NCBI GenBank assembly: GCA_024276495.1
Contig: JAJRXC010000081.1
Span: 41,790 to 105,789, forward strand
From: Actinomycetes bacterium
GTDB lineage: Bacteria; Actinomycetota; Acidimicrobiia; Acidimicrobiales; Aldehydirespiratoraceae
Direction: 5' to 3'
DNA length: 64,000 nt
This document shows, piece after piece, positions 28,933 through 36,111 of this stretch. The notes under the pieces were generated by a model. The model was not told where the DNA came from, searched no databases, and worked only from the letters and a program-made list of their open reading frames with translations. The position numbers and the translations under genes are program-made. Position 1 is the first letter of the stretch. The number at the start of each line of letters is the position of its first letter.

Positions 28933-29340
28933 CTACGACTCGTCGGGCGGGTCCAGATCGAGGCGCAGCGACGCCGAGTTCATGCAGTAGCGCTGCCCGG
29001 TCGGGGGCGGGCCGTCAGGGAAGCGGTGACCGAGATGGGCCCCGCAGTGGGCGCACACGGCTTCTTCGCGCACCATGCCATGGCTCGTGTCGGTGTGGAT
29101 CTCGACCACTTCGTCGCCGACCGTGTCGAAGAAGCTCGGCCATCCCGAACCGGATTCGAACTTCGTGTCGCTGGTGAACAACGCGGTGTCGCAGACGATG
29201 CAGTGGTAGGTGCCGTCGTCGTGGCAGTCCCAGTACTCACCGGTGAACGGGGCCTCGGTCCCGGCCTGTTGCGTGACGGCGAACTGCTCGGGGGTGAGGC
29301 GCTCGCGCAGTTGATCCTCGGGGAACTCGACCTGGGTCAT
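28933..29340 (-). CDS. msrB: Peptide-methionine (R)-S-oxide reductase
   Basis: A 135-residue repair enzyme reducing methionine-R-sulfoxide. Two zinc-binding CxxC pairs are present (CIVC, CAHC), and the catalytic cysteine sits in [13 protein letters not shown] near the C-terminus with the GHRFPDGP substrate loop before it. The ATG at 29340 is preceded by GAAAGGA and gives the family length; the longer ORF-track start is leader. It is divergent from the membrane protein at 29.5 kb. Confidence 0.97.
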
Positions 29341-29460
29341 GGGGGTCCTTTCGCGGTGTTCGTGGTGAGGAAACGCCGTGGGGGAGATCATGGTTCCAAT
29401 TCCGCCGAGAATCCATCGGACCGCCGCGGTGGGCGTCGTGTTGTGCTGCAATCAGGCCCG

Positions 29461-31023
29461 ATGATCCTCTCGGCTGTCGATGTGCTCGTGTGTGTCGGCG
29501 TAGTCGCGGTCGTGCTGGGTGCACAGCTCGTGGCGACGATCGACGATCCGCCGGGGGGCGCCGACGAGGGCTACCTCTGGTACGGCGTGCTCGCGGTTGC
29601 CCGCGCAGAGGTGCCCCTGCGCGACTTCCGCAGCTACGAACCGGGCCGGTACTGGGTCTCCCTGCCGTTCCTGGTGCTCGGCCGGGGACTGCCGTCGATT
29701 CGGGTCGCGGCGACGGCGATGCTCGCAGCGGGGACGCTTGCCGTCGCCTTGGCGCTGCGGGGGACCGGTCGGGGGTGGCCGGTCGTGGTCGTGGCCGTTC
29801 TGATCGTCGCCGCCTGGTCCCCGATCTTCCAGAAACGCCACGATCAAGCCGTGCTGCTGCTCGCGGCCGCGGCGCTGGTGTGGGTCATGGCCGATCCGGC
29901 CCCCGCATCGTTCGTCGCCGCGGGGGCCGCAGTCGGACTGGCCCTCGTCTTCGGCCTGAACCTGGGGCTCTACGCGGGAGCCGCCACGGGACTGGCGCAA
30001 CTCATCGTGGCGCGGCGGGTCGGGGTCGACCTCCTCCCCGCATCGGGCCGGGTCCTGTTCGGCGCGTTCGTCGCGGGATCACCGCTGCTGGTGATGACCC
30101 TCGCCGTTCGGGGCTTCGGACGGGCGCTGGTGCAGCGGCGCGTCGTCGACACGACCCGCCGGGGCGCGACGAATCTCGCCCTGCCCGTCCCCGTGCCGTG
30201 GCGGCCCCCGCCCCGCCAGGTCCGCATGGTCGTCGGTCGGTTCGGGGCCCGGCTCGCCCCACTCCTGTTCGTCGTGGTCCCGACCGCCGCGGCGGTCGTC
30301 GTCGCCGTGGCCCTGTTCGGACCGGACGACTGGGCCGGTGCGCATCCGGTCCTGGTCGGGAGCGCGGCCCTCACGCTTCCGGCGTGGCATCACGTCACGA
30401 GCCGGGCCGACATCGAACACCTGTCGAACGTGATCGCGGTGCCGCTCATCGGGTTCGTCGCCTTCGCGGACGCCGGCGTGGTCCCGCTCGTCGTGGCGAT
30501 CGTGGCCGTCGCCGTGGCCACCGGTGCGGTGTCGATGCCCCGTCATCCGTGGGTGAAGCGCCGGCGGGAGCCCGCTGCCTACGTGCGGCGTTCGATTCGG
30601 GGCCGTCGGGCGCTGTGGTTCCGCACGGTCGACGCCGTCCTGGTCGACGCCGCGGTCGGTCTCCGCGACGAGATCGCGGACGACCGCCCCTGGCTGGCCG
30701 TTCCCATGACCCTGTGGCTGTTGCCCTTTCTCGGGTTGCGCTCGGCGGTCTACGACAGCTTCTGCGTGTATCCCGCGTCGCCCGACGCGCAGGAGCGGAT
30801 GATCGGGGAGATCGACGCGACCGCCGCGCCGGTCGCCGTCGTCGGACTCTCCGCGCTCGATGGCCGCGAGGATCTGCGGTTTCCGGCCACGCACCCCCGG
30901 GTGTGGGCCCACCTCTGCGACCTCTACGACCCCGTGGTGCCCGATCGGTCGCTTCCGGGCTCGGTTCGGATCCTTCGCCGGCGCGGCACCGTCGGTCAGG
31001 CCGCGGATCCCGCGATCACCTGA
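29461..31023 (+). CDS. Polytopic membrane protein, possible GT-C-type glycosyltransferase relative
   Basis: A 520-residue protein with about ten hydrophobic segments. Near the N-terminus an acidic loop follows the first helix (DDPPGGADEGYLWYG), then FRSYEPGRYW. Acidic residues at that position are typical of GT-C (ArnT/PMT-like) polyprenyl-sugar transferases, but I cannot confirm the family. The last 110 residues look soluble (RFPATHPRVWAHLCDLYDPVV). It is convergent with the five-gene surface-sugar operon and overlaps its last gene by 28 nt, which supports a shared envelope role. Confidence 0.65.
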   Translation: MILSAVDVLVCVGVVAVVLGAQLVATIDDPPGGADEGYLWYGVLAVARAEVPLRDFRSYEPGRYWVSLPFLVLGRGLPSIRVAATAMLAAGTLAVALALRGTGRGWPVVVVAVLIVAAWSPIFQKRHDQAVLLLAAAALVWVMADPAPASFVAAGAAVGLALVFGLNLGLYAGAATGLAQLIVARRVGVDLLPASGRVLFGAFVAGSPLLVMTLAVRGFGRALVQRRVVDTTRRGATNLALPVPVPWRPPPRQVRMVVGRFGARLAPLLFVVVPTAAAVVVAVALFGPDDWAGAHPVLVGSAALTLPAWHHVTSRADIEHLSNVIAVPLIGFVAFADAGVVPLVVAIVAVAVATGAVSMPRHPWVKRRREPAAYVRRSIRGRRALWFRTVDAVLVDAAVGLRDEIADDRPWLAVPMTLWLLPFLGLRSAVYDSFCVYPASPDAQERMIGEIDATAAPVAVVGLSALDGREDLRFPATHPRVWAHLCDLYDPVVPDRSLPGSVRILRRRGTVGQAADPAIT

Positions 31024-31739
31024 AACGACGACAACGGCCCGGGCAGGCGGAGCCGATCGAGGCCGTCCTCGATCCGAGCGCCGCCCCGGTTGGCGATCAC
31101 CGGCGGGAACAGGCCCGTCCAGCGGTGGCGGATCGAGTCGAATCCGGCGGCCGCCATCGCGTCGATCAGCGCGCCCCGCCGCATGGCGAACACCCCCTTG
31201 TCGGAGCGCCAGCTCATCTTGGGAGTCATCGTGATCTGGATCGGGAAGAGCGGGCTGTAGGCGTTGGGTTCGAGAAAGCAGGCGACACCGCCCGGGCGCA
31301 GGCACCGTCGCACGCCACGGAACCCGGCCGCGAGATCCGGCAGGTGATGCAGCACGAAGAACCCGACGACGGCGTCGAAGCCTCCGTGGAGCTCCTCGGG
31401 TGGATCGAGGACGTCGCCGTGGTGGAGGTCCATCGGTGCACCGTCGAGATGGGTCCGGAGCGCGTCGAGGAGATCCGGCGAGAGGTCCAGCCCGCCCACG
31501 TCGTACCCGCGGTCGAGCAGTCGCAGGGAGAACTTCCCCAGTCCGCAGCCGACATCGAGGATCCGTTGGCCGGGCACCAGCCCCGCGGCCGCGACGACGC
31601 GGTCGAGGTGGCGTTCGACATAGGCGCCGCGGGAGGGAACCATTCGTGGGTTGCGGAGCGTCGCGACGTCGAAATGGGCTCGCTGCCGATCATTGTGTCG
31701 GCGGTGGGGAACGGACTCGTCACCGGATCCGATGCTCAT
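30996..31739 (-). CDS. Class I SAM-dependent methyltransferase (last gene of surface-sugar operon)
   Basis: A 247-residue methyltransferase. Motif I is ILDVGCGLGKFSLRLL, followed by VGGLDLS and FFVLHHLPDL, then the C-terminal LRPGGVACFLEPN. This is the pattern of UbiE/SmtA-like enzymes that methylate sugars, lipids or quinones. The ATG at 31739 overlaps the upstream glycosyltransferase stop by 4 nt. The 3' end overlaps the convergent membrane protein by 28 nt. Confidence 0.88.
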   Translation of the reverse strand: MSIGSGDESVPHRRHNDRQRAHFDVATLRNPRMVPSRGAYVERHLDRVVAAAGLVPGQRILDVGCGLGKFSLRLLDRGYDVGGLDLSPDLLDALRTHLDGAPMDLHHGDVLDPPEELHGGFDAVVGFFVLHHLPDLAAGFRGVRRCLRPGGVACFLEPNAYSPLFPIQITMTPKMSWRSDKGVFAMRRGALIDAMAAAGFDSIRHRWTGLFPPVIANRGGARIEDGLDRLRLPGPLSSFQVIAGSAA

Positions 31740-32413
31740 CGTCGCCGAGACTCCCGAATCGCACCGAACGCACCGACGGCGAGACGGACGCGGGTGCGGC
31801 TGGTGGTCGCGCTGCGTCCGATCGGCCGGGCCCGCCGCACGACCGGCAGCGACATCGTCGGACGTCGGGTCGCGGCGATGTCGGCCAGCAGATAGGGACG
31901 TCGAGAGTCGCGGGCGAGGATCGCGTCGACGAGGGCGCGGGTCATCACGACATAGGCGCCGGCATCTCGAGGGGTGCCGGTCAACCGGTGGAGCATCCAC
32001 TTGAACGTGCGGCCCGTGGCGAGCCGACCCCGGCCTTCGTAGGCCCCCCGGCGTCCGGCGAAGACGGCATCGCAGCTCGATCTCCGCAACGCGGCCAGCA
32101 GCGAGGGGATCGCCTCGGGCGGGTCCTGGAGATCGCCGTCGAGCACGACCACCTCGGCGCCGGATGTGGCCCGCAATCCGGTGCGGATCGCCTGGTGCTG
32201 GCCGCGGTTGGTGCGGTGGCGCAGGGCGGTCACCCGGTCATCGGCGGCGGCCAGCGCGACGACGGCATCGCCCGACCCCTGATCGCAGGCGTCGTCGACA
32301 TAGACGAACCGGACGGCCGTCTCCGCGTCCAGGGCGGCCGAGAGACGTTGGTGCAGCTCCCGCGCGGTCGTCGCCGTGCGATACATCGGCACGACGACGC
32401 AGACGCCGGTCAT
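31736..32413 (-). CDS. Family 2 glycosyltransferase
   Basis: A 225-residue inverting GT-A enzyme (VCVVVPMYRTATTARELHQRL, FVYVDDACDQGSGD, RTNRGQHQAIRTGL and the DxD-type block VVLDGDLQDPPE). The DLQDPPE motif is characteristic of dolichol-phosphate-mannose-like and GtrB-like transferases that charge polyprenyl phosphate. It is shorter than most DPM-like proteins and lacks C-terminal membrane helices. It overlaps both neighbours by 4 nt. Confidence 0.88.
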   Translation of the reverse strand: MTGVCVVVPMYRTATTARELHQRLSAALDAETAVRFVYVDDACDQGSGDAVVALAAADDRVTALRHRTNRGQHQAIRTGLRATSGAEVVVLDGDLQDPPEAIPSLLAALRRSSCDAVFAGRRGAYEGRGRLATGRTFKWMLHRLTGTPRDAGAYVVMTRALVDAILARDSRRPYLLADIAATRRPTMSLPVVRRARPIGRSATTSRTRVRLAVGAFGAIRESRRR

Positions 32414-33321
32414 GGTCGGGTCACGGGTTGTTCGAGCCCGGCGACGATCCGGGCCAGGCCGTCGCGAAGCGACCGCGGGGCGCGCCCGAGCAGCTCGGAC
32501 GCTGCGCGGGAATCGCCGAGCCATGTCGCCCGATCGTGGGAGCGGGCCGGGAACGCACCGATCCGGCGATCGACCGGCCGGCCGGTGACCGCTTCGACGA
32601 GATCGACGACGGCCTCGTTCGTGGTGCACACCCCGGTCGCGATGTCGATCGGTTCGGCGGCGACGAGGCGCCGCGAGATCGCTGCGGTGATCGCCTCGGT
32701 CACGTCGTCGACATGGACGAGATCGTGCCCGAGTCCCGCCTTCGTCAGCGGGAGCGGCGATCCGGTCGTCGCGGCCCGGATGGCCCGGGGAACGAGCCGC
32801 CCGGCCGGTTCGTTGCCGCCGTAGACGTGGAAGAGGCGCAGCGTGCAGCCGTCGAGCCTCCCGGTGCGGACCATGTCGGCGAGTCGGCGCGACGCTTCGA
32901 GCTTGGTGATGCCGAGGGGCGTCGCCGGGCGGCACTCGACATGGGCGCCCAGGGCCTCGTCGTGGGGCCCGTACTCGAACGAGGAGCCGGCGTGGACGAC
33001 ATGGGCGCCGATCTCCGCCGCCGCCTCGATCAGGCTGGTGAAGCCGGCGACGTTGACCCGGCGGGCCGCGTCGAGGTCGTCACCTCGAACCACCGCGAGA
33101 TCGATGATCGTGTGCGGCGTGTGGCCGATGACGAGCTCGCGTACCTCGGCGGGCGTCCCGAGGTCGCGTTCGGTGACGGTGACGCGATCGTCGAACAGGT
33201 GTGGCGGCACGGGGCTCCCCGGCCGGACGGTGGCGATCACGTCGTGATCCGCGGCGGTGAGCAGAGGGAGAAGCGACGAGGCGATGAAGCCGCCGCTCCC
33301 GGTCACCAGAACTCGACTCAT
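32410..33321 (-). CDS. NAD-dependent sugar epimerase/dehydratase
   Basis: A 303-residue extended short-chain dehydrogenase. The nucleotide motif is VTGSGGFIASSLL and the substrate half has FHVYGGNE. The usual catalytic Y-x3-K is not obvious: the equivalent region reads PATPLGITKLEA, where the Tyr is replaced by Gly-Ile. SSFEYGP provides the Ser/Thr region. The function is probably a nucleotide-sugar modification, and the missing Tyr should be checked by alignment. It overlaps both neighbours by 4 nt. Confidence 0.85.
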   Translation of the reverse strand: MSRVLVTGSGGFIASSLLPLLTAADHDVIATVRPGSPVPPHLFDDRVTVTERDLGTPAEVRELVIGHTPHTIIDLAVVRGDDLDAARRVNVAGFTSLIEAAAEIGAHVVHAGSSFEYGPHDEALGAHVECRPATPLGITKLEASRRLADMVRTGRLDGCTLRLFHVYGGNEPAGRLVPRAIRAATTGSPLPLTKAGLGHDLVHVDDVTEAITAAISRRLVAAEPIDIATGVCTTNEAVVDLVEAVTGRPVDRRIGAFPARSHDRATWLGDSRAASELLGRAPRSLRDGLARIVAGLEQPVTRP

Positions 33322-34115
33322 GCCGGCACCCCGATCAGTTCGGGCGCGAGGGCCGCGATCGCCCGGTGGGCGGCGCGGCGATCCCGTTCGATCTCGTCCG
33401 CCGTGCGACCGGCGGCGCCGGCGAGCCCGTGTCTGATGGCGTCGCAGATCTCGGCGGCCGTTCGGTGCTCGAGCGCGTGGAAGAACGACCGGCGCAGGAA
33501 GGTGTAGTCGCACCCGATCCGCGCGAGCTCGTTGATCAGGTGGCGACAGGGGAGCGGGTCACCGAGGTCGGGATGGGTGAGCCCGGCCACGCCGAACGGT
33601 GTCGAGGCGAACCGGCCGGCCAGCGTGTCGATGGTGCCGTCCACGAACGGGTCGAAGCGGTGGCGGCCCCGCCGGTCGATCCACAAGTCGTTGAGCCCGA
33701 CATAGACCCGCGAGAGCGGCAGCGTGGCGAGCTCGGCGGCCTGGTCGACCGCGTCCGTGGTCTCCACCATGATCCCGACGCCCGCGCTCGTGCCCACCTG
33801 GGCCATCACCTCGGTCACCTCCTCGGGCCGGCGGACCATCGGGATCAGGATCTCGTCGACCCCGGCCTCGAGCACGGCGTCGACCTGGGCGCGGCGGTGC
33901 GGGCCGTGGCCGTCGATGCGACACACCAGGGGAAGGTCGGTGGTGGCGCGGACCCGGCGGACGTCGTCGATGCCGTTCACGGAGATGTCGGTGTCGACGC
34001 CTCGTTGGCGGGCCGGCTTCCCGCGGCGTTCGAGGTCGACGACGACGGCGTCGAGGCCGAGGGTCGCCGCGGGCGCGACGAGATCGTCGCGGGCGAAGAC
34101 GAAGAGCCGGGTCAT
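33318..34115 (-). CDS. HpcH/HpaI-like aldolase/citrate-lyase-beta superfamily protein
   Basis: A 265-residue TIM-barrel protein of the phosphoenolpyruvate-binding superfamily. Visible blocks are DAVVVDLERRGK near residue 24, LVCRIDGHG, GVDEILIPMVRRPEEV, the metal-ligand glutamate in IMVETTDAV and VGLNDLWIDRRG. Enzymes of this fold make or break C-C bonds on pyruvate or acyl-CoA. Its position between epimerase and methyltransferase suggests a role in building an unusual sugar or acyl substituent, which is inference. ATG 34115 overlaps the upstream gene. Confidence 0.85.
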   Translation of the reverse strand: MTRLFVFARDDLVAPAATLGLDAVVVDLERRGKPARQRGVDTDISVNGIDDVRRVRATTDLPLVCRIDGHGPHRRAQVDAVLEAGVDEILIPMVRRPEEVTEVMAQVGTSAGVGIMVETTDAVDQAAELATLPLSRVYVGLNDLWIDRRGRHRFDPFVDGTIDTLAGRFASTPFGVAGLTHPDLGDPLPCRHLINELARIGCDYTFLRRSFFHALEHRTAAEICDAIRHGLAGAAGRTADEIERDRRAAHRAIAALAPELIGVPA

Positions 34116-34843
34116 CGGGATGGCACGGCCACGGCGATGAGCGAGGATCCGACGGGGAGTCGCAGACCCCGTTCGGCCAGGGAGGCCTCGGCGCCCGTGA
34201 CCGCCGACAGGACCCGGTTGACGACTCGACCGGGATGGTCCTCCATGTCACGGGTCGCGGTGGAGCGACGCCCGGCGATGCGACTGGCGGCGAGGAGAGG
34301 GAGCAGGACTCCATGGAACGCGGTGCAGCGCTCGACCGTGAAACCGGTCGCCTCGAGCACGGTCCGGACGCCGGCGCGGGTGTAGCGCCGGAGATGCCCG
34401 GCCTCGTCGTCTCGGGCGCTCCACAGGCGGGGGCCGGCGGGAACGGTCATGACCAGATGCCCCTCGGGCCGCAGGACCCGGCGGACCTCGACGAGGCCGG
34501 CCGTGTCGTCGACGTGTTCGAGCACGTCGAGGGCCAGCACGACATCGGCCGAGGCGTCGCGGATCGGAAGATCGAGGATCGTTCCCTGCGCGAAGGCCGG
34601 GGCGTCCTTCCTGTCGTTCATGTGGGCGCCGAGCGGGTCGATCCCGATGCGGGTGTCGGTACGGGGGAGTCCGCTCAGCACGGCTCCCGTCCCGCACCCG
34701 ACATCGACGACGACGGCGGGGTCGGGGCGCGGGAGTCGACGAAGGGCGTCGTGGACGATGCGGCGGCGGGCGGTGAACCAGAAGTGTGTCGGCTCGATCT
34801 CGGCGATCCGGTCGAGACGCTCGATGGTCATCCCCCCGCTCAT
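34112..34843 (-). CDS. Class I SAM-dependent methyltransferase (first gene of surface-sugar operon)
   Basis: A 243-residue methyltransferase starting with [21 protein letters not shown], a signature of methyltransferases in polysaccharide clusters. Motif I is [13 protein letters not shown], followed by [17 protein letters not shown] and [17 protein letters not shown] 34843 is chosen because TAGGGT ends 8 nt upstream; ATG 34831 is an alternative. It heads five genes that each overlap by exactly 4 nt, so all are translated from one transcript. Confidence 0.88.
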
Positions 34844-34851
34844 CGGGCGAC

Positions 34852-34857
34852 ACCCTA
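34852..34857 (-). promoter_or_regulatory. -10 element (TAGGGT) of the five-gene operon
   Basis: On the minus strand TAGGGT ends 8 nt before the ATG at 34843. The recA LexA box lies 51 bp further out. Confidence 0.55.
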
Positions 34858-34907
34858 CTTCCACCATCCGGATCTTCTTCGGTGATCTTCTTTCCGAGGA
34901 TGCTTGA

Positions 34908-34923
34908 TCGAACAGCTGTTCGC
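34908..34923 (+). promoter_or_regulatory. LexA (SOS) box upstream of recA
   Basis: TCGAACAGCTGTTCGC matches the actinobacterial/Gram-positive LexA consensus TCGAAC-N4-GTTCGA in 15 of 16 counted positions, with both GAAC and GTTC half-sites perfect. Confidence 0.85.
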
Positions 34924-34959
34924 AATTACGTTCGTGTCATTCGTTCCGGCCTCGGATGG

Positions 34960-34982
34960 GTGTCACACCCCCTTCGTAGGTT
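34960..34982 (+). promoter_or_regulatory. RecA-NDp (PafBC-type) promoter of recA
   Basis: GTGTCACAC, then 8 nt, then TAGGTT fits the LexA-independent damage promoter tTGTCRgtg-N8-TANNNT in its conserved TGTCR and TANNNT positions and in the exact spacing. Transcription would start near 34989, giving a leader of about 65 nt. Confidence 0.65.
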
Positions 34983-35055
34983 CGAGCCCACGACACACCA
35001 TCCAAACACACCCCCTCAATCAGTAGCGCCACGGGCGCAGACGTCAGGAGACAAA

Positions 35056-36111
35056 GTGGAGCGAGACAAGGCACTCGACATGGCCCTCGGGCAGATCGAG
35101 AAGCAGTTCGGGAAGGGCTCGGTCATGAAGATGGGCGAGAAGAGCACGATGGGCATCGAATCGATTCCCACCGGTGCCCTGGCGTTGGACCTCGCCCTCG
35201 GGATCGGCGGTCTGCCTCGTGGCCGGGTCACCGAGATCTACGGCCCGGAATCGTCGGGCAAGAGCACTCTCGCCACCCATGTCGTGGCCGAGGCCCAGCG
35301 CAACGGCGGCATCTGCGCCTACATCGATGCCGAGCACGCGATGGATCCGGTCTACGCCCGGGCGATCGGTGTCGATGTCGACGAGCTGTTGATCTCCCAG
35401 CCCGACACCGGCGAGCAGGCGCTCGAGATCACCGACATGTTGATTCGCTCCGGCGCGCTCGACGTGATCGTGATCGACTCCGTGGCCGCGCTCACCCCTC
35501 GGGCCGAGATCGAAGGCGACATGGGCGATCACCATGTCGGTCTCCAGGCCCGGTTGATGTCGCAGGCCCTGCGCAAGCTCACCAGCAACCTCAACAAGTC
35601 CAACACCGTCTGCATCTTCATCAACCAGCTGCGGGAGAAGATCGGGGTGATGTTCGGTTCGCCCGAGACCACCCCGGGTGGCCGGGCGCTCAAGTTCTAC
35701 TCGTCGTGCCGGCTCGACATCCGCCGTATCGAATCGATCAAGGACGGTGTGGAGGTCGTGGGCAACCGCACCCGGGTCAAGGTCGTGAAGAACAAGTGCG
35801 CGCCGCCGTTCAAACAGGCCGAGTTCGACATCATGTACGGCGTCGGGATCTCCCGCGAGGGGTCGGTCCTCGACCTCTCCGTCGAGGAGGGCATCGTCAA
35901 GAAGTCGGGGGCCTGGTACACCTACGACGGCGAACAGCTCGGGCAGGGCCGCGAGAACGCCAAGAAGTTCCTCCAGGAGAACCCCGAGGTCATGGTCGAG
36001 ATCTCCGACCGGGTCTGGAAGGCCGTGATGCCCGACGAGGAAGAGATCGACCTCACCGACGCCGAGGAGTTCTCCGACGCCGACGATCTTCCGATCGCCC
36101 TCGACGACTGA
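35056..36111 (+). CDS. recA: Recombinase RecA
   Basis: A 351-residue recombinase with Walker [10 protein letters not shown], the Walker B region [22 protein letters not shown], loop L2 ([22 protein letters not shown]) and [21 protein letters not shown]. It directs strand exchange and LexA self-cleavage. No intein is present. GTG 35056 follows AGGAG by 5 nt and gives the family N-terminus; the ORF track extended it through the promoter. A strong terminator follows. recX is not downstream, unlike in many actinobacteria. Confidence 0.99.

Follow-up and report, generated by a model that had tools for sequence, protein, structure and literature searches.

The question raised by this locus is what an operon joining an aldolase-like lyase (ALD), an epimerase-like dehydrogenase/reductase (SDR), a glycosyltransferase (GT2) and two methyltransferases (MT1 and MT2) could be making, and whether its genes form a single pathway. 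In the window, the 64,000-nucleotide stretch of actinobacterial DNA analysed here, all five minus-strand genes have intact reading frames and were assigned to their families by Pfam and NCBIfam (Table 1), and the five-gene operon with 4-nucleotide overlaps seen in the initial annotation is real. Each of its four junctions is an exact overlap of 4 nucleotides, as annotated, but all four are ATGA; the GTGA type given as the other form is absent from the window and present in a relative (locus L012 of genome G045). MT1 has an alternative start at an in-frame ATG at 34867. The −10 element said to precede the first gene could not be recovered, with no sigma-70-like promoter found in 29300-35100 by a type of scan that is weak for an actinobacterium of 70% G+C. 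A LexA-like box, TCGAACAGCTGTTCG, lies at 34908-34922 upstream of recA, about 65 bp from the MT1 start and on the opposite strand; the operon may conceivably be under damage-responsive control.

Table 1. Features of the cassette between msrB and recA (positions in the window)
Feature	Position	Strand	Basis
MT1, class I SAM methyltransferase	34112-34843	-	Pfam Methyltransf_11/23; homologue in L012, 48%
ALD, HpcH/HpaI-type lyase	33318-34115	-	PF03328 36 bits, cut-off 25
SDR, extended SDR without catalytic Tyr	32410-33321	-	PF01370 (Epimerase) 109 bits
GT2, ArnC/DPM1/GtrB-like	31736-32413	-	PF00535; motif GDLQDPPE
MT2, class I SAM methyltransferase	30996-31739	-	Pfam Methyltransf_25/23; homologue in L012, 48%
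Polytopic membrane protein, possible GT-C transferase	29461-31023	+	hydropathy; 520 aa, ~10 hydrophobic segments
Island msrB-recA (approximate limits), membrane protein and five-gene operon	29341..34902		DNA homology to relatives

The cassette is a discrete island of six genes between two housekeeping genes. Seven genomes from the same genus or family have msrB directly next to recA, their matched ends lying 211-281 bp apart, and in the window about 5.6 kb separate the two genes; DNA homology to the relatives ends around 29325 on the msrB side and restarts around 34903, a few bases before the LexA-like box. The operon and the convergent membrane-protein gene are the content of the island, in which no further genes were identified. 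Its G+C content is 71.7%, compared with 68.3% in the remaining window, and neither a tRNA gene nor a convincing flanking repeat was found there as a mark of integration. ALD is without a homologue in 36 further genomes from the genus and family, and carriers elsewhere are patchy within their families (2/10 and 2/6), as expected of a mobile trait. The best reading is that the cassette was acquired laterally.

Close homologues of ALD were found in 6 of the 298 genomes of the order, the window's own included, the other five (G045, G076, G149, G194 and G269) at 43-47% identity and all remaining matches in the order being far weaker (E 4e-6 or worse); a more distant relative (34%) is carried by G680. 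In every one of these six other carriers ALD is accompanied by homologues of SDR and GT2, which adjoin it or, in G045, share its operon. Such recurrence in every other genome with a close ALD homologue is more than chance, and ALD-SDR-GT2 is a core that recurs as a unit, distant actinobacteria included. Seven modules could thus be compared (the window, L012, L025, L026, L027, L028 and L043), four of them closely related, and the 4-nucleotide overlaps recur in most of those outside the window. Both methyltransferases, on the other hand, are present only in the window and in G045, where the order is SDR-MT1-ALD-GT2-MT2-membrane protein. The homologues are therefore not scattered with no conserved neighbourhood, the outcome that the initial annotation had named as fatal to its proposal, and the search for the same gene order that it called for does recover the core; the five genes, however, are not one indivisible pathway, because the core is ALD-SDR-GT2 and the methyltransferases go with it in two modules out of seven. 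With its three genes, the conserved unit is smaller than the five-gene operon and has a wider distribution. A common ancestral location for the modules L025, L026, L027 and L028 is suggested by nearby ABC transporter genes that resemble an iron uptake type (binding protein, permease or ATPase).

The membrane-protein gene does converge on the operon, overlapping its 3′ end by 28 nucleotides. A polytopic membrane protein adjoins the module in four cases (the window, L012, L025 and L043) and lies about 1 kb away or less in two more (L026 and L028), none being seen in L027; because of this, and because the membrane protein and the operon are jointly missing from the msrB-recA gap of the seven relatives, the two belong together, and shared acquisition makes the membrane protein a member of the cassette, whatever its function. 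The association suspected in the initial annotation is thereby upheld. The protein of the window is a possible GT-C transferase, but it has no match in Pfam. Nor has it a convincing homologue in the 298 genomes of the order or detectable similarity to its counterpart in L012. It carries the motif ADEGYL after the first hydrophobic segment. PMT_2 matches were obtained for the membrane proteins of L025, L026 and L028, above the cut-off only in L028.

The most distinctive protein of the core is the SDR. The tyrosine of the YxxxK motif is the textbook hallmark of catalysis in this family, and the lack of an obvious Y-x3-K, noted from the beginning, is borne out by alignment: the window SDR reads TPLGITK at this site, with L136 in place of the tyrosine and K140 kept, and the tyrosine is lost in all seven modules (L, R, F, F, F, F and R in the window, L012, L025-L028 and L043, respectively). 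The lysine is invariant across the modules, and so are the serine pair and the Gly-rich cofactor motif (TGxxGF in the window, where S113, S114 and E116 are retained). Outside the modules the tyrosine is kept in 26 of the 27 other SDRs of carrier genomes G000, G045 and G194 (the exception having Met) and in 24 of the 24 next-closest SDRs examined from the order, that is, in 50 of 51 as opposed to none of the seven; the viral SDRs aligned in A3 keep it too. Fisher's test gives 2.7e-8 for this loss, a value that assumes independent sequences, whereas the four with F are closely related; the safe statement is that three different residues take the place of the tyrosine within one linked SDR subgroup. 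That subgroup also stands apart in score: only six SDRs in the 298 genomes reach at least 418 bits, and these belong without exception to the six ALD carriers, one SDR to each, whereas the next scores 255 bits. The latter, the closest Tyr-bearing SDR (L208 5838-9548, in G299), sits amid methyltransferase-like genes and a GT2 with no ALD, in what may be the ancestral type of cluster.

As to what kind of SDR this is, its structure model (pLDDT 92.8) has TM values of 0.83-0.89 to 4-epimerases, among them UDP-GlcNAc 4-epimerase and MoeE5 of moenomycin biosynthesis, the latter being also the solved SDR nearest in sequence. Having the Rossmann-type fold and the Gly-rich cofactor motif of extended SDRs and lacking YxxxK, it is a homologue of the nucleotide-sugar extended SDRs and not a member of the classical YxxxK-dyad type. 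The Tyr-less nucleotide-sugar SDRs found in the literature are the Mx3K dehydratases: in PglF and WbpM the tyrosine is Met, with the Thr-Asp of an upstream motif proposed as proton acceptor (PMC8987622), and CapE resembles them (PMC3699295). One could argue that the presence of at least three residues (L, R and F) at the tyrosine site is what would be expected if catalytic selection were gone, and that the SDR has lost its redox chemistry and become a non-catalytic scaffold or regulatory subunit binding the nucleotide sugar for ALD or GT2. We consider this decidedly unlikely, given that the lysine, the serine pair and the cofactor motif are all invariant and that PglF, WbpM and CapE are active despite their absent tyrosine (PMC8987622, PMC3699295).

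ALD passes the cut-off of its family (Table 1), and its residues R65, E117 and D142 are invariant in nine relatives. A profile of nine members matches the YfaU and HpaI aldolases in the PDB, E117 and D142 aligning with the corresponding stretch at the metal-ligand positions and the catalytic arginine, R65, being assigned by position only; searched as a single sequence ALD has no match in the PDB, and its single-sequence fold has a pLDDT of 52. It is probably a metal-dependent lyase. Distant relatives are found in L045, a Rhodobacterales polysaccharide locus, next to genes for NeuB, a cytidylyltransferase and an amidotransferase; in L044, clustered with genes for a LegB-like dehydratase, an aminotransferase and a PLP-dependent decarboxylase; and in L047, adjoining a sugar transferase. 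These contexts, which have no Tyr-less SDR, tie the wider ALD subfamily to the synthesis of surface glycans. The polysaccharide locus, with the ALD relative beside the NeuB-family gene (L045 12004-13908, and L046), is plasmid-borne in two different genera of Rhodobacterales, Pseudohalocynthiibacter and Roseovarius, with mostly identical protein accessions. No ALD relatives were found among viral contigs. The one match labelled as phage, L047 (MT835705.1, ‘Bacteriophage sp.’), was rejected as such: with recA, a cysteinyl-tRNA synthetase-like gene and further chromosomal genes, it has the look of DNA from a bacterial chromosome. Also rejected, as spurious, was L011, the only locus given by the single-sequence ALD scan of genome contigs, whose frame resembles coproporphyrinogen oxidase.

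How the lyase and the SDR work together is where interpretations diverge. They might jointly form a C-C bond on a nucleotide sugar in an undescribed step, the SDR exposing a carbonyl to which the lyase would add a pyruvate-type unit. The methylated sugar that resulted, branched or extended, would be loaded onto lipid by GT2. This appears to us unlikely. Given that enzymes of the HpcH/HpaI kind normally use free keto acids and aldehydes, and that the ALD relatives of the nonulosonate-type loci (L045, L044) do without a Tyr-less SDR, ALD may not extend a nucleotide sugar at all, but supply a small aldehyde or keto acid or trim a precursor, the SDR being a reductase or epimerase relative with altered acid-base residues and a lipid-linked sugar still being the product. 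This we regard as a possible alternative, to be taken seriously if short of probable, and against it stands the strict linkage of ALD and the Tyr-less SDR in the modules found, which suggests consecutive steps.

The remaining enzymes point to the destination of the sugar. ArnC is the best NCBIfam model of GT2, and its only solved relatives are ArnC, DPM1 and sll0501; with a domain nearest ArnC/DPM1/GtrB and a DxDLQDPPE-type motif, which is mostly DADLQDPPE in the other modules, it has the features of a polyprenyl-phosphate transferase. The protein, of 225 aa with a C-terminus that is polar by inspection, has no C-terminal membrane anchor such as those of ArnC and GtrB; some DPM1 proteins likewise lack one. 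MT1 and MT2 are ordinary class I SAM enzymes, several of the solved relatives of MT2 being natural-product enzymes (CouO, the novobiocin methyltransferase and MitM). Together with the proximity of the SDR to MoeE5, this could be taken to mean that the cassette serves not a surface glycan but some small glycosylated molecule that the cell secretes, a proposal that we find very unlikely in view of an island with no scaffold-building gene and a GT2 of the polyprenyl-phosphate kind.

The interpretation we favour, with moderate confidence, is that the cassette makes an unusual or modified sugar and attaches it to a lipid carrier in the membrane, the identity of the sugar and the lyase chemistry being conjectural. 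With NAD(P) bound, the Tyr-less SDR would turn a nucleotide sugar into a keto, epimerised or reduced one, and proton transfer would fall to K140 and a residue of the S-S-x-E motif in the manner of the Thr-Asp proposed in PglF. E116 was dropped as a unique replacement base, since the Tyr-bearing L184 and L185 share SSxEY; this sharing, which leaves the glutamate a putative base, also counts against the favoured reading. ALD might then, though our confidence here is low, make or break a C-C bond beside the carbonyl made by the SDR, building the sugar or a precursor. By analogy with their relatives, GT2 would charge polyprenyl phosphate with the sugar, which the membrane protein would transfer across the membrane to an acceptor, and, in the lineage of the window and in G045, the two methyltransferases would methylate the product. 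We lean towards a lipid-loaded sugar because of the island itself, the linkage of the core in all six of the other carriers, a GT2 nearest ArnC/DPM1, the invariant residues of ALD, the tyrosine loss in every module, the surface-glycan loci of distant ALD relatives and the membrane protein near six modules of the seven. Weighing against it are a window membrane protein with neither Pfam match nor detectable similarity to that of L012, a GT2 with no C-terminal anchor, and a comparison of seven modules only, four of which are closely related.

The protein families are known. We found no description of the gene combination or of the Tyr-less (L/R/F) subgroup, the papers searched covering SDRs that lack the tyrosine as well as glycan clusters with HpcH/HpaI or citrate-lyase-family proteins. 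A Tyr-less SDR whose neighbours are in every case the same lyase and lipid-carrier transferase offers a testable case of alternative SDR chemistry, the cassette may lead to a sugar beyond current nucleotide-sugar pathway predictions, and ALD-SDR-GT2 is a three-gene signature usable for annotation. If C-C bond formation on a nucleotide sugar were true, higher or branched sugars would have a new route of synthesis, and the nucleotide-sugar SDRs that do without the tyrosine would gain a second, independent class.

Compared with known systems, the cassette repeats familiar parts in a different arrangement. Like the HpaI/YfaU class II pyruvate aldolases, which its profile matches, ALD has Glu and Asp at the metal-ligand positions, but the similarity is weak and ALD stands in glycan loci rather than catabolic ones. 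Among solved proteins, the SDR comes closest, by sequence and by fold, to MoeE5 and other 4-epimerases (of UDP-GlcA and UDP-GlcNAc), which, unlike the module SDRs, keep the tyrosine; PglF, WbpM and CapE, on the contrary, share with the module SDRs both the lost tyrosine and the retained lysine (PMC8987622, PMC3699295), but have Met and an upstream TDK motif where the modules have L/R/F and SSxE, beside ALD. The ArnC/ArnT and GtrB-type two-step systems pair a polyprenyl-phosphate sugar synthase with a polytopic transferase. The cassette differs from them in having ALD and the Tyr-less SDR in place of a sugar pathway of the ArnA/ArnB type, a GT2 with no obvious membrane anchor and, in the window, a membrane protein of no detectable family, and it resembles them in that its GT2 is closest to ArnC, DPM1 and sll0501 and is adjoined by a co-acquired polytopic protein.
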